A DNA stretch of 41,594 bases, from positions 1 through 41,594 of the forward strand of contig PTKH01000011.1 in the NCBI GenBank assembly GCA_002937655.1. The letters run 5' to 3'. Below are positions 10,949 to 31,007 of the stretch, one piece after another. The notes under the pieces were generated by a model that saw nothing but the letters and a program-made list of their open reading frames with translations, made no database searches and was not told the DNA's origin. Each line of letters opens with the position of its first letter. Position 1 is the first letter of the stretch. The translations under genes and the position numbers were made by a program. This DNA comes from Alphaproteobacteria bacterium MarineAlpha9_Bin3 (GTDB taxonomy: Bacteria; Pseudomonadota; Alphaproteobacteria; TMED109).

Positions 10949-13900
10949 ATGTATGAATGTGAGAATGAAGAAATAAGAATGAGAAATAAAAATAAAAATA
11001 TTAGTTTTAGTAAAAGACCTAGTAACCAAGGCTTGTATGACTCTAACTTCGAGCATGATGCATGTGGAATAGGGTTTGTAGCTAATATTAAAGGTAATAA
11101 AGAGCATTCAATCATATTGGATGGTTTAAAAATTTTAGATAATTTAACTCATAGGGGTGCTGTGGGTGCAGACCCAACATTAGGTGATGGTGCAGGATTA
11201 CTTCTTCAGATTCCTGATCAATTTTTAAGGGAAGAATGTAAAAAAGAAGGTATAATACTTCCTAACGAGGGTAGTTACGCTGTTGCGCAGGTATTTTTTC
11301 CGAATGATAATTCTTCAATAAAATATACAAAAGAAATATTTACAAAAGTTCTAGAAGAAAATAATACTGAGATAATTTTTTGGAGAAAAGTGCCAGTAAA
11401 TGAAAAAGCAATATCTAAGTCACTGAATTCTACTGCACCTGTAATAATGCAAGCATTTGTAATACCTAAAGATAAAAATATTAATCAGGATGAGTTAGAA
11501 AGAAAAATATTCATAGTTAGAAAAATTTTATCAAATCAGTTTAGGACGGATAAAATTTTAATCAAAAAGAATCAAAATATTTATATATGTTCTTTTTCTA
11601 GCAGAACTTTAAACTATAAAGGCATGCTTTTATCTGATACCGTTGGCGCATATTTTACTGATTTAGAGGACAAAAGAGTAGTTAGCGCATTAGCTCTTGT
11701 GCATCAAAGATTTTCTACTAATACTTTTCCATCTTGGGATTTAGCTCAACCTTTTAGAATGATATGTCATAATGGAGAAATTAACACACTTCGTGGGAAC
11801 GTTAATTGGATGAATGCTAGAAAGCATATGATGTCATCAAAAGTTTTAGGAGATGATTTAAAAAAAATATGGCCCATAATTGCTGAGGGCCAGTCTGATT
11901 CAGCATGTTTTGATAATGCTTTAGAATTATTAATTATGGGAGGATATAGCTTATCTCACGCGATGATGTTGTTAATTCCAGAGGCCTGGCAAAATAATAA
12001 CTTAATGGACAAAAGTAGAAAAGCATTTTACGAATATAACTCCTCTGTAATGGAACCTTGGGATGGTCCTGCAGCAGTAGCATTTACGGATGGAAAGCAA
12101 ATAGGTGCAACTCTAGATAGAAATGGCCTAAGACCAGCAAGATATTTCATTACTGATAAAGACAAAATAGTTTTATCTTCTGAAATGGGAGTATTGCCTC
12201 ACCCTGAAGAGAAAATTAAGGAAAAATGGAGATTGCAACCAGGAAAAATGCTTTTAATAGATTTGGAGAAAGGGGCAATAATTACAGACCAAGAACTAAA
12301 AGAAGATATTGCAAATCAATTCCCTTATCAGGAAATATTACGAAAAAGTAATCTCGTTATTGACAATTTAAAATCTATAAATATAGATCAAGAAAAATAT
12401 GACTCAGAGTTAAAATTGGATCTACAACAAGCATTTGGTTATACTCAAGAAGATATAAAATTTTTAATGTCGCCTATGGTTGAGAATGGGCAAGAAGCTA
12501 CGGGGTCTATGGGTACGGATACGCCAATAGCAGTTCTATCATCAAAGCATAAACCTTTATATAATTTTTTTAAGCAGTTATTTGCACAAGTGACAAATCC
12601 TGCAATTGACCCCATCAGAGAAAAAATGGTTATGAGCCTTATGAGTATTTTAGGTCCTAGAAAAAATCTTTTATCTTTGAAGCCGTCAGATGATAAGTGC
12701 TTAAAGCTCAAGCAACCAATATTAACAAATAATAACATGTTAAAAATAAAGAACATTGATAAATATCCTGATAGTGGCCATAAAACTATTGTTTTAGATG
12801 CTACCTGTGATTTTAAAGACGGTATAATCGGCATGCATAATTCTTTAGAACAATTAAAATTAAATGCTGAAAAAGCTATTAAAAATGGTGCAAATATTTT
12901 AATTATATCAGACAAAAAAATATCTTCTAATAGGATAGCCTTGCCAGCTTTACTAGCAACAAGTATTGTTCATCAATATTTAGTTAAAGTTGGTTTAAGA
13001 ACTGAAGTAGGCTTAGCAGTAGAAACAGGGGAAGCAAGAGAAATTCATCATTTTTGTGTATTGGGTGGATATGGAGCTGATGCCATCAATCCTTACTTAG
13101 CCTTTTCTACTATAGAGGATATAATTTCAAACATATCAATATCATATGAAGTAGCTTGCGATAATTATATTAATGCTATTGGTAAGGGAATGTTAAAGGT
13201 TATGTCTAAGATGGGTATTTCTACATTTCAATCTTATAATGGAGCTCAAATATTTGACGCTGTCGGCCTATCTTCAGATTTTGTAAAAATATATTTTCCT
13301 GGAACACCTAGTAAGATAGAAGGTCTTTCTTTAAATGATATTTTAGAATCATCTTATGACTGCCATAAAAAAGCTTTTGGGTTGGAACAAGTACTGCAAA
13401 ATAATTTAGAAGTTGGAGGAGATTATGCATATAGAATTAGAGGTGAAGATCATGTTTGGACTCCAGACACAATTAAAGACCTGCAACATGCAGTAAGAGG
13501 AAACTATCCAGAAAAATATCAGTCTTATGCGAGCATTATTAATGAACAATCAGAGCAAAAGATGACTCCAAGAGGTTTATTTAAATTAAATGTTAATAAG
13601 AATCCACTTGATTTAAAGGCAGTAGAGTCTGCAGATAAGATAGTAAAAAGATTTGCTACTGGAGCGATGTCTTTTGGTTCGATATCCAGAGAGGCTCATA
13701 CTACACTCGCCTTAGCTATGAATAAAATTGGAGGTAAATCTAATACTGGTGAAGGTGGAGAAGAAGTAGATAGATTTGTTGTTAATGAAGATGGTTCTTC
13801 CATGCGATCTGCAATAAAACAAGTTGCCTCTGGTAGATTTGGAGTGACCGCGGAGTATTTAATTAATGCAGATGATATTCAAATTAAGATATCGCAGGGT

Positions 13901-23131: not shown

Positions 23132-23668
23132 TTATATTTTTTTTGATAAAAAAATTGCCAGTTTAGTAATTTTTTTTATACTTTTGGTCATTAGTTCATA
23201 ACCTTGTGTGTCCTCAGCATCATGATCTAAAGCAGTATTTCTATGCTCAATTTCTTCATTTCTAAATTTTTCTATTATTTTTATAAGCTCTTTTTCTTTA
23301 TTATCTTTTTCTAACATATCTTGTTGTTCTTTATAGTGCTTTTCTATGACTTCTTCTACTGCTACAGTACAGGCCATGGCAGCTTTTCTTCCTACTAATG
23401 CAGTAGCAGCGCCAAGTAAATAACCACCTACACTCCATATAGGTGATAAAGCAGTTGGCCTTATACCCCTTTTAATCAAAATTTTATTAAATGTTTCTAA
23501 GTGTATCTTTTCTTGTTCTAACATTTCTCGAATAGTTTTATCATTATGTAAAACTGCTAACTGTCCTTCATATATTTTCTGAGCCCCAAACTCTCCTGCT
23601 TGATTAACTCTTATCATATCTGATATCTTATCATTTTTAGATGTAATTTTTGTAAAGGAACTTTTCAT
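23132..23668 (-). CDS. coq7: Demethoxyubiquinone hydroxylase (Coq7)
   Basis: The protein has 178 residues and a ferritin-like di-iron fold. It hydroxylates demethoxyubiquinone, the penultimate step in ubiquinone synthesis. The iron-ligand motifs are visible in order: an NQAGEFGAQKIYEGQ segment with Glu27, QEKIHLETF with ExxH, VEEVIEKHY, and NEEIEHRNTALDHDAE with ExxH. N-terminal IRVNQAGE is characteristic of Coq7. ATG 23668 overlaps the dsbB stop by four bases (minus strand), so the VTT protein, DsbB and Coq7 form one transcript. The stop lies one base from the end of the convergent sufA gene. Many bacteria use UbiF instead; Coq7 is the usual alphaproteobacterial form. Confidence 0.95.
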   Translation of the reverse strand: MKSSFTKITSKNDKISDMIRVNQAGEFGAQKIYEGQLAVLHNDKTIREMLEQEKIHLETFNKILIKRGIRPTALSPIWSVGGYLLGAATALVGRKAAMACTVAVEEVIEKHYKEQQDMLEKDNKEKELIKIIEKFRNEEIEHRNTALDHDAEDTQGYELMTKSIKKITKLAIFLSKKI

Positions 23669-24180
23669 GTTATTCTTTCTTTTTTTAAATGTTTATTTAT
23701 AATTAATATAGTTGAAAATATTAAAGAAACTAGTCCATATATGAAACTCCATTGAACTAGACTAATATATAAAAATTTAGGTGACATTTGATCACAAGAG
23801 GCATTTAATTTATTATTAATATTTTTAAGTTCTTCTTCTAAACTACCTATATTTTCAGTCATTCCTGAGCATTCAAGTGATGCTGCCCACCATTCTAATT
23901 CTACTCCTATATGCCAAAAGCTTATTGATGTAATAGTAAAAAAAGAAATTATTATTAATAGATCTATTATTTTATTTGTATGATAAAATAGACCTATAAT
24001 ACTTATCAAAATTAAAATAGTATATCCATATCTTTGAAACATACACAGACGACAAGGTTCATAACCAAATAAATATTGTAAAGTAAAAGCAAATACCAAG
24101 GCTAATATAGCTAACAATAGAGATATGAAAGAAGGATTAAATATATTATTTTGTAATTTCCTAATCAAAAGTATATCCAT
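23665..24180 (-). CDS. dsbB: Disulfide bond formation protein DsbB
   Basis: The protein has 171 residues and four membrane helices. It re-oxidises periplasmic DsbA and passes electrons to ubiquinone. The first periplasmic loop has the CxxC pair in EPCRLCMFQRYGY (Cys43 and Cys46); the second loop has Cys104 (LECSGM) and Cys129 (NASCDQ), almost the same positions as in E. coli. The Arg in CMFQR fits the quinone-contact position. ATG 24180 overlaps the upstream VTT gene by 16 bases, and the stop overlaps coq7 by four. Pairing with a ubiquinone biosynthesis gene makes functional sense because DsbB uses ubiquinone. The dsbA partner is not in this window. Confidence 0.93.
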   Translation of the reverse strand: MDILLIRKLQNNIFNPSFISLLLAILALVFAFTLQYLFGYEPCRLCMFQRYGYTILILISIIGLFYHTNKIIDLLIIISFFTITSISFWHIGVELEWWAASLECSGMTENIGSLEEELKNINNKLNASCDQMSPKFLYISLVQWSFIYGLVSLIFSTILIINKHLKKERIT

Positions 24181-24743: not shown

Positions 24744-24774
24744 ATTTTTAGTTTTTTGCTTAATAGGTTAATAT

Positions 24775-24803
24775 TTGATATTTTTAATGCTTTTAGCTAT
24801 ATA
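24775..24803 (+). promoter_or_regulatory. Candidate sigma-70 promoter of the SoxYZ-like/MBL pair
   Basis: TTGATA (24775-24780) and TATATA (24798-24803) are separated by 17 bases. The expected start of transcription near 24810 lies downstream of the longest possible reading frame's TTG (24756), which argues for the later TTG at 24834 as the translation start. It sits in the 90-base gap from the divergent VTT gene. Confidence 0.5.
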
Positions 24804-24833
24804 CTATATATACAGAAACATTTGGGGAAATTT

Positions 24834-25724
24834 TTGATTAAATATTTTTTATTTATATTTATATATATATATTCAGGAGTTTCATTTTCTGGACCCTTTT
24901 CAGATTTTAAAGCAGGAGCTGAACTTTCAGAAGAACTTTCTTCAAGCCCTACAGCGAAAAGAAATACTCCTAATTCTGATAGTTTAGTACAGTCAATTGA
25001 TGCTTTAAACCCTGAAAATTCAAATGTTTGGCGTGATTTGCAAGACAATTTACTTGGAAACGATGCGAATGTCTTATTTGTAGATGATATTAAGCTTATT
25101 ATGCAGGATTATATTGAAGAGGCGCATAAAGTTCCATTAATAGTTACGCTTCCTAAAAGATTACATAATTTTAAAAATTTTGTATTAATCATAGAAAATA
25201 ATCCCATTCAACAAGCTATGTCAATAAGACCTTACAGATTGATTGAATCACTTGGTATGAATATTAGGTTAGAAGATGACTCGCCAGTTAGAGCAGCAGT
25301 TCAAGCTGATAATGGTATATGGTATGTTGGATCTAAAATGGCTTTTGTAGCAAGTGCAGGCGGATGTTCTACCCCTGCTTGTGATCCCTCTGTAGAGGTA
25401 TGTGAAACTGGTACGATTGGTAAAATAGCTATTAAACAATATGAAAGAGAAGCGGGAGCAGAAAGAATAAAATTAAAGATTACCCATCCTATGGAGACAG
25501 GATTTGTTACTGATTTAGAAGGTGAAATTATACCTGAGTATTTTGTAAAAAACATTCACGTAGATGATAATGAAGGGGCAATTGCAGATATTACTACTTT
25601 TGCAGCTTTATCTAGTGACCCCGTTATTTTATTAGATTTACCTAAAAAGGGCCAAAGTGTTAGAATTCATGTAAAAGATTCTTTAGGATTGGAATTTTTC
25701 TCTTACGATAATAATACAATGTAA
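24834..25724 (+). CDS. Quinoprotein dehydrogenase-associated SoxYZ-like carrier (secreted)
   Basis: The protein has 296 residues from TTG 24834, chosen because GGGGAA lies four bases upstream, a promoter lies just before it, and it gives a compact signal peptide (about residues 1-18, cleavage near SFS-GPF). The mature part has a SoxY-like domain (VWRDLQDNLLGN to AFVASAGGC) and a C-terminal SoxZ-like beta domain (IKLKITHPMETGFV to IRIHVKDSLG). At the join is AGGCSTPAC (Cys178, Cys183), then Cys190, in place of the C-terminal GGCGG arm that carries sulfur intermediates in true SoxY. The fused layout fits the TIGR04557-type carriers that occur with PQQ enzymes. It overlaps the next gene by one base. 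The family is likely; the bound substrate is unknown. Confidence 0.82.
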   Translation: MIKYFLFIFIYIYSGVSFSGPFSDFKAGAELSEELSSSPTAKRNTPNSDSLVQSIDALNPENSNVWRDLQDNLLGNDANVLFVDDIKLIMQDYIEEAHKVPLIVTLPKRLHNFKNFVLIIENNPIQQAMSIRPYRLIESLGMNIRLEDDSPVRAAVQADNGIWYVGSKMAFVASAGGCSTPACDPSVEVCETGTIGKIAIKQYEREAGAERIKLKITHPMETGFVTDLEGEIIPEYFVKNIHVDDNEGAIADITTFAALSSDPVILLDLPKKGQSVRIHVKDSLGLEFFSYDNNTM

Positions 25725-26656
25725 TGAAGTTTTTTAATATAATCCTATTTTTTATATTAAATTTTTATGCTTATCCTTCTATATCGTCAAATAATTTTAA
25801 CTTAGTTCCAATAGAAATAAGCGATAATGTTTTTGTTATTATAGGTGATAATGAGAATATTAGTATTGAAAATGGAGGAGCAATAAGTAATACAGGCTTT
25901 ATAATAGGAGATAACTATATACTTGTTATAGATGCTGGTCCAAGTTACATATACGCTTCTAATGTTATAGATATAATTAAGTCTTTTTCTGACTTACCTA
26001 TTCAATATTTAGTTGTAACTCATCATCATGCTGATCATTCATTTGGAATTTCTAGGTATTTAGAAATTGATGTTGAAATTATTATAGCGCCTGCAGAACT
26101 AAAGAGATATCTAAAGTATGGGCATCGCTCACTAAAACAAATTAAGGCTCTTATTGGGGAAGATTGGTTATTAGATACAAAAATAAATTCTTTTGAATAT
26201 AAAGTAAAAGAATATCCCATAAGTTTAAATTTAGGAAATAGAAATATTTCGATAGAATTATTCGAAAAAGGTCACTCTGATGGAGACCTGATTATAAAAG
26301 ATAAAAATAGTAATATTTTATTTGTTGGAGATTTAATATTTAATGGAAGAGCACCTACTGTGCCACACGCTAATATTAATAATTGGAAAAATTATATAGA
26401 TATTATTAGTAAAAGAGATTGGAATTATTTAATACCTGGCCATGGTAATATTATAAAAAATAAAAATGAACTTTTACCAACAAAAAACTGGATTACCTTT
26501 ATAGATAAAACCGCAAAAGAAGCATCAATAAAGGGAGTAAGCGCTTTAGAAATTTTTAACGAAGGTCTTCCAGATTTTATCAAAAAATATAAACTGGCAA
26601 AAGAGACCTGGTATAGGGATTTACCTATATTAATTGATAAGTATGAATTTGATTAA
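25724..26656 (+). CDS. Secreted metallo-beta-lactamase-fold hydrolase, quinoprotein relay (SoxH-like) type
   Basis: The protein has 310 residues and an N-terminal signal peptide (about 1-22, with a hydrophobic stretch FFNIILFFILNF). The metallo-beta-lactamase motif THHHADHSFG supplies His100, His102, Asp104 and His105. Further metal ligands are expected in EKGHSDGDLIIK (His) and VGDLIF (Asp). The last His is in IPGHGNI. The ATG overlaps the stop of the SoxYZ-like gene by one base (TAATG), so the two are translationally coupled. MBL proteins next to SoxYZ-like carriers have been called quinoprotein relay zinc metallohydrolases and resemble SoxH. The substrate is unknown, and glyoxalase II-like thioester or sulfur-adduct hydrolysis is only a guess. 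Confidence 0.82.
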   Translation: MKFFNIILFFILNFYAYPSISSNNFNLVPIEISDNVFVIIGDNENISIENGGAISNTGFIIGDNYILVIDAGPSYIYASNVIDIIKSFSDLPIQYLVVTHHHADHSFGISRYLEIDVEIIIAPAELKRYLKYGHRSLKQIKALIGEDWLLDTKINSFEYKVKEYPISLNLGNRNISIELFEKGHSDGDLIIKDKNSNILFVGDLIFNGRAPTVPHANINNWKNYIDIISKRDWNYLIPGHGNIIKNKNELLPTKNWITFIDKTAKEASIKGVSALEIFNEGLPDFIKKYKLAKETWYRDLPILIDKYEFD

Positions 26657-30110: not shown

Positions 30111-31007
30111 TTGGAAGGTACAAATAAAGATAAACAATCACTACAAGATTTACTATCTCATGATTTAGAATTTAAATATGCCACTTCTAAAAAGGTTTTA
30201 CCTGGTATTAGAAGAGTAGTAGCTCCTAATCCAAGCCCTTATACACTTCACGGCACTGGTACCTATATAATAGGTTCAGGAGAAGTAGCAATTATAGATC
30301 CTGGCCCAAATATTCCCTCACATATTGACGCTTTAATAAATGAAACTAAAGGAGAAAAAATTACTCATATATTAGTTACTCATACACATGCCGACCATTC
30401 TCCAGCATCTAGGCCACTAGCTAATTTAACTGGCGGAATTGTAATGGGCTATGGTCCTCATGGAAATGAAGAAGGCGAAGAAGGGGCTGATTTAAGTTTT
30501 ACCCCTGATTATTTAATTAAAGATAAGGAAATTATTAAAGGATATAACTGGGAATTGGAGTGTATACATACCCCGGGTCATACCTCAAATCATATTTGCT
30601 ATTCTGTTAAGGGATCTAAAGCGATATTAACAGGAGATCATATAATGGGATGGTCAACAACTTTAGTATCACCACCAGATGGGAATATGAAAGATTATTT
30701 TACCAGTTTAGAAAAAATGTTATTGAGAGAAGAAGAATATTATATTCCATCTCATGGTGAAATGATAAAAAATCCAAGAAGATTTGTGACCGCTTTAATA
30801 GGTCATAGGAAGATGAGAGAAAAGCAGATAAAAAAATATTTACATACTAATAAAATATCTTATATTCCTGAATTAGTATCTAAAATGTATCCTAATCTTG
30901 ATAAACGATTAATTAAAGCTGCAGGAAGATCTGTTTTAGCCCATTTATTACATATGCAAGAATTAGGTTATGTTCAATCAAGTGATAGTGGTTGGATTTT
31001 AATATAA
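30111..31007 (+). CDS. Metallo-beta-lactamase-fold hydrolase, LACTB2-like
   Basis: The protein has 298 residues with no signal peptide, so it is cytosolic, unlike the MBL protein at 25724. The metal motif THTHADHSPA gives His91, His93, Asp95 and His96; additional ligands are His in TPGHTSNH and Asp in TGDHIMGW, and the last His in PSHGEMI. The C-terminal 60 residues form a helical winged-helix-like extension (KRLIKAAGRSVLAHLLHMQELG), characteristic of the LACTB2-like group. Human LACTB2 is an RNA endonuclease, but bacterial relatives are mostly uncharacterised. The start is TTG 30111, with AGGAG six bases upstream. It is divergent from the Nudix gene and 22 bases before ribF. Confidence 0.88.
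   Translation: MEGTNKDKQSLQDLLSHDLEFKYATSKKVLPGIRRVVAPNPSPYTLHGTGTYIIGSGEVAIIDPGPNIPSHIDALINETKGEKITHILVTHTHADHSPASRPLANLTGGIVMGYGPHGNEEGEEGADLSFTPDYLIKDKEIIKGYNWELECIHTPGHTSNHICYSVKGSKAILTGDHIMGWSTTLVSPPDGNMKDYFTSLEKMLLREEEYYIPSHGEMIKNPRRFVTALIGHRKMREKQIKKYLHTNKISYIPELVSKMYPNLDKRLIKAAGRSVLAHLLHMQELGYVQSSDSGWILI

Follow-up and report, generated by a model that had tools for sequence, protein, structure and literature searches.

The fused SoxYZ-like carriers and the SoxH-like hydrolases form a family already known as an accessory set of PQQ enzymes, and the proposals for their role around PQQ/lanthanide alcohol dehydrogenases span from sulfur protection to maturation. SoxY carries sulfur on an arm cysteine, and the substrates of MBL hydrolases include esters, thioesters and sulfate esters. 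Here, we ask what such a pair does in Alphaproteobacteria bacterium MarineAlpha9_Bin3, where it is encoded away from any dehydrogenase. The window analyzed is the whole contig PTKH01000011.1 (41,594 nt).

The two open reading frames that the first-pass annotation had described were recovered with their one-base overlap, formed by the carrier stop (..ATGTAATG..) and the hydrolase ATG (Table 1). The carrier start was placed at 24756 by the ORF finder. We prefer the TTG because the ribosome-binding-like site stands at a normal distance from it, the four relatives G006, G005, G003 and G007 all have TTG or ATG at the same place, and the reading frame shows no conservation further upstream. That most of the family's genera have homologues, together with low dN/dS against four same-genus relatives (about 0.04-0.13 for the carrier and 0.13-0.18 for the hydrolase, dS being partly saturated), indicates that the coding is real and that both genes are clearly under purifying selection. 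Export of both proteins is suggested by their hydrophobic N-termini. As for the candidate promoter noted earlier, a TTGATA-19-TATACT-like block at 24775-24805 is indeed partially conserved across the genus, but a promoter scan upstream of the carrier found no sigma-70-like site and fewer sites than in shuffles; with nothing beyond the partial block conservation in its support, the promoter candidate is a weak one. A second MBL-fold gene, glyoxalase II-like and below the GloB cut-off, lies 3.5 kb downstream (30111-31007) and holds the same place in relatives.

Table 1 Features of the carrier and hydrolase locus, in window positions
Feature	Position	Strand	Description
Upstream region	24775..24833	+	TAGCTATATACTATAT block, partly conserved (a weak candidate for a promoter); ribosome-binding-like GGGGAA
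Fused SoxYZ-like carrier	24834..25724	+	296 aa, TTG start, hydrophobic signal-like N-terminus; SoxY then SoxZ domain
Swinging arm	25359..25403	+	GGC178STPAC183DPSVEVC190: carrier Cys and two extra Cys
MBL-fold hydrolase, SoxH-related	25724..26656	+	310 aa, predicted secreted
HxHxDH metal-site motif	26021..26038	+	H100, H102, D104, H105
Further metal ligands	H184 26273-26275; D203 26330-26332; H240 26441-26443	+	intact

The carrier matches the Pfam SoxY and SoxZ domains and passes the NCBI model for quinoprotein-associated SoxYZ-like carriers (TIGR04557; 144.5 bits, cut-off 140, positions 1-225 of 226), while falling far below the cut-offs for true SoxY and SoxZ (TIGR04488/TIGR04490; 21.2 bits against 125, and 47.2 against 76). 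Its AF2 model (pLDDT 82) has two beta domains with an arm between them that is disordered at residues 180-192, and Foldseek retrieved SoxY and SoxZ chains and the SoxYZ of Paracoccus, with matches to 2ox5 and 4uwq. Two domains and an arm cysteine are thus common to the window carrier and the SoxYZ thiosulfate carrier of Paracoccus and Thermus, which differs in having separate chains and its cysteine at the SoxY C-terminus. TIGR04557 carriers such as PP_2677 of Pseudomonas putida, the META1p homologues and SoxYZ-S2/S4 (PMC11237559) are likewise fused and exported, the latter being a prediction for the window carrier; they share with it the invariant GGC arm, the company of a SoxH-like hydrolase and, probably, co-occurrence with PQQ synthesis. 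Identity between the window carrier and xoxF-linked members is about 20-25%, and its three arm cysteines are a further difference. The AGGCSTPAC site reported earlier is present, and two further cysteines, C183 and C190, had gone unremarked. In the carrier alignment, G176, G177 and C178 are invariant and the GGC arm lies between the SoxY and SoxZ domains. Dehydrogenase-linked carriers have a single cysteine in an arm that reads GGCSAP, GGCTA or similar. The DNA pattern of the tri-Cys arm occurred in one of 398 genomes of a phylum sample, which was the genome under study. Plasmid matches (24-32% identity) were of the usual dehydrogenase-associated type. No relatives of the carrier came up in IMG/VR, which leaves a viral origin of this copy unsupported.

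The hydrolase matches PF00753 and has the complete bi-metal ligand set (HxHxDH, H, D, H), so that the intact motif noted earlier is extended by three ligands. It resembles the quinoprotein relay zinc metallohydrolases 1 and 2 (PP_2678; SoxH-like) in fold, metal ligands and carrier adjacency, but scores under both curated cut-offs (TIGR04558, relay hydrolase 1, 213.2 bits against 300; TIGR04559, 165 against 280). By these scores we regard it as a relative, not a member, of TIGR04558. The nearest folds to its AF2 model (pLDDT 93) are 8d2z, an uncharacterised Burkholderia protein, chlorothalonil dehalogenase, BcII of the B1 lactamases, and alkylsulfatases. The likeness to the alkylsulfatases SdsA1/Pisa1 and to class B1 beta-lactamases, at about 14-20% identity, is at fold level only. 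The catalytic residues are conserved within the window clade and are degenerate in another, dehydrogenase-adjacent subgroup. There (L094 8610-9575, L162 7680-8657, L163 6229-8013), the motif reads NxHxDY with D to G, the genes stand beside carriers and PQQ dehydrogenases, and the products are likely pseudoenzymes.

Where the pair sits was resolved in a tree of 55 carriers with a SoxYZ outgroup. The window carrier falls into a clade of 20 carriers (support 98/84), none of which is adjacent to a dehydrogenase (G235 is at a contig edge); this is a difference from the known TIGR04557 carriers. Of the two results that the first-pass annotation had named as refuting, adjacency to a dehydrogenase in all relatives and a lack of conservation in the catalytic residues, neither occurred in this clade. 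Within it, a subclade of 15 (100/96) has the three-cysteine arm GGCSxPxCDxxxExC or, more loosely, GGC-S-x-P-x-C-D-x-x-x-x-x-C. In genera g1, g2 and g4 the pair occupies one site, between a suf/coq7/dsbB-like block and tRNA/speD/decarboxylase (ODC) genes. In g8, the hydrolase is still at the suf-coq7-dsbB/speD-ODC site and the carrier has moved beside flagellar genes; the retention of both genes in g8 despite this split speaks for a continued joint function. The SDR and flagellar genes adjoining the solo carriers of g3 and g8 gave no functional lead. The window pair is a distinct, vertically kept version of the family, whose new features are the orphan locus and the three-cysteine arm. One MAG contains the locus twice in nearly identical form (L080 and L079, on G005 contigs C33 and C35), probably through strain redundancy in the assembly.

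The genomes that carry a fused carrier were compared with others in a sample of 387 Alphaproteobacteria. The co-occurrence analysis proposed in the first-pass annotation linked the carrier to PQQ synthesis: pqqE was found in 34 of the 36 fused-carrier genomes and in 38 of the 351 others (Fisher p about 3e-26, kinship ignored), the exceptions being the genome under study and G371, and the co-occurrence is spread over many families. Outside the family, 31 genomes encode a fused carrier; in 20 of them a PQQ dehydrogenase lies no more than 10 kb from it, in seven the two are clearly unlinked, and in four the locus is cut by a contig end. The association with unfused SoxYZ is much weaker (17/36 vs 71/351). 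This bears on the suggestion that the pair is a spare SoxYZ and SoxH feeding the soxXYZA system on contig C4 of the same genome, an accessory to thiosulfate oxidation. The presence of soxX, soxY, soxZ and soxA on C4 and the alkylsulfatase-like fold matches of the hydrolase speak for it, as does SoxH reported in place of SoxB in Sulfurimonas (cited in PMC11237559). However, 19 of the 36 fused-carrier genomes lack SoxYZ while nearly all have pqqE, the GGCST arm differs from the canonical SoxY arm, and the pair is unlinked to sox genes, which makes this explanation improbable in our estimate. The sox genes themselves (L116, C4 8548-10747) lie beside cysteine synthase-like and cystathionine lyase-like genes, and the organism is likely a thiosulfate user.

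No PQQ dehydrogenase was found on the window contig over its whole 41,594 nt, which extends to the full contig the earlier remark that none is nearby. A search of the rest of the genome, as had been proposed, was successful for the dehydrogenase and not for pqq genes. A PQQ alcohol dehydrogenase gene starts at C25:15792 and is truncated by the contig end (L077 15792-16505); a same-genus genome has the gene in full, with genes for a pseudoazurin and a MoxJ-like protein after it. This dehydrogenase type, intact in L121 (6597-8261), has FF in place of the adjacent-cysteine pair, and the aspartate pattern seen in its intact relatives is that of the lanthanide type. The pseudoazurin is possibly its copper-protein electron acceptor. 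Neither pqqE nor pqqC was found in the assembly under study. Contig C32, however, tracks the sequence of a sister genome and ends at base 12,220, 2.5 kb short of the sister's pqqE; since C32 ends where the operon is expected and same-genus genomes have pqq genes, the missing operon is most simply an assembly gap. Across the family, 24 of 28 genomes have pqqE, and each of the eight genera has a PQQ dehydrogenase. A PQQ_2 match on contig C1 (L001) was set aside as a BamB-like lipoprotein instead of a dehydrogenase because its N-terminus resembles that of a lipoprotein and it precedes a Der-like GTPase.

The first-pass annotation had left two readings side by side, in which the pair may serve a dehydrogenase encoded elsewhere or may act alone on a thiol-bound intermediate. 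As the genome encodes a dehydrogenase elsewhere and relatives have both dehydrogenase and pqq operon, we consider service in trans to be the best reading, and a probable one, with action alone less likely; the C25 fragment, the sister pqq operons and the pqqE counts all agree with it. An orphan-pair system of this kind is further supported by the passed TIGR04557 cut-off, the retention of both genes in g8 and the links to rhodanese and NosR-like genes.

These links come from G368, a member of another family, in which a tandem rhodanese on the opposite strand and a NosR-like membrane iron-sulfur protein come after the tri-Cys carrier. The former shares 44% identity with a rhodanese adjoining pqqBCDE in the sister genome G006, and the latter 33% with a NosR-like protein next to the adjacent-cysteine PQQ dehydrogenase of G006. 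Neighbourhoods in different genomes thereby connect the orphan carrier, rhodanese, NosR-like protein, PQQ synthesis and dehydrogenase in a chain. The xox-type locus L096 also contains a PQQ-associated CXXCW rhodanese. This neighbour evidence favours a sulfur chemistry that may guard or tune quinoproteins. The first-pass annotation had envisaged a cycle in which a reactive product would be bound on Cys178 and released by hydrolysis; the rhodanese neighbours point to a sulfur group on that residue at least as much as to a product of alcohol oxidation.

The latter possibility corresponds to a carbon relay, in which Cys178 would capture an aldehyde product of the dehydrogenase as a hemithioacetal, to be oxidised to a thioester and hydrolyzed by the MBL enzyme, a periplasmic analogue of glutathione-dependent formaldehyde oxidation. 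Such a relay would fit the strong link to PQQ dehydrogenases beside the much weaker one to Sox, and MBL-fold enzymes such as glyoxalase II are established to cleave thioesters. Fused SoxYZ have also been suggested to act in carbon metabolism (PMC11237559). Yet the relay leaves the rhodanese neighbours without a role, the PQQ dehydrogenases of g5 work without the pair, and no gene for a thioester-oxidising partner was seen; we hold it to be unlikely.

The explanation that we favour is the following sulfur-based mechanism for service in trans. The pair would work for PQQ alcohol dehydrogenases, predicted to be of the lanthanide type, at other loci. Both proteins would be exported, and the flexible arm of the carrier would present Cys178. 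The small group that this residue might take up would most likely derive from sulfur (sulfane, sulfite or thiosulfonate). A rhodanese could deliver or remove this sulfur group, and the bi-metal hydrolase could clear it and free the Cys178 thiol. PQQ and the dehydrogenase would in this way be shielded from reactive sulfur, or from another electrophile or nucleophile. On this whole model, in which in-trans quinoprotein service is combined with loading and clearing of sulfur on Cys178, we consider the balance to be even. Sulfur protection of PQQ and a role in maturation have both been put forward as hypotheses in the literature (PMC12997753, PMC11237559).

Maturation could take the form of thiol-disulfide exchange, with the tri-Cys arm forming or protecting disulfides of the dehydrogenase or of a cytochrome partner. 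The two extra arm cysteines conserved in 15 carriers and the dsbB-like gene two genes from the carrier (23665-24180) would suit such a function, which has been proposed for adjacent-cysteine dehydrogenases (PMC12997753). It is hard to reconcile with the single arm cysteine in most of the family, with the only dehydrogenase found in this genome, which has no cysteine pair, and with a hydrolase that is left without a role, and we give it little credence.

Several observations weigh against the sulfur-based in-trans model. The one dehydrogenase seen in the genome departs from the published associations, which involve the adjacent-cysteine pair, and TnSeq in Pseudomonas putida yielded minimal phenotypes (PMC12997753). 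Genus g5 (G010, 97% complete) encodes a PQQ dehydrogenase and pqqE but neither carrier nor hydrolase, and the pair is therefore not required. The small genome G155 encodes the pair (L137 7090-9282) and pqqE, yet gave no strong match to the methanol/ethanol PQQ dehydrogenase family. The degenerate metal site of one dehydrogenase-adjacent hydrolase subgroup also counts against the model.

Alternatively, the unlinked three-cysteine clade might have split from quinoprotein service altogether, so that its arm would bind, through three thiols, either a metal or a chain of polysulfur and would form, with the hydrolase, an independent periplasmic module for handling sulfur or metal, a scenario that we judge very doubtful. 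Returning to service in trans, a clade in which the pair lies outside dehydrogenase operons and is sometimes split, and which is marked by a particular arm signature and a link to rhodanese and NosR-like genes, amounts to a natural experiment, and C178, C183 and C190 provide a clear set of residues for testing. Genes for NosR-like and related polyferredoxin/cytochrome membrane proteins lie at L120 8764-12701, adjoined by genes for a lanthanide-type PQQ dehydrogenase, a MoxJ-like protein and cytochrome c, and a homologue adjoins the carrier in L136.
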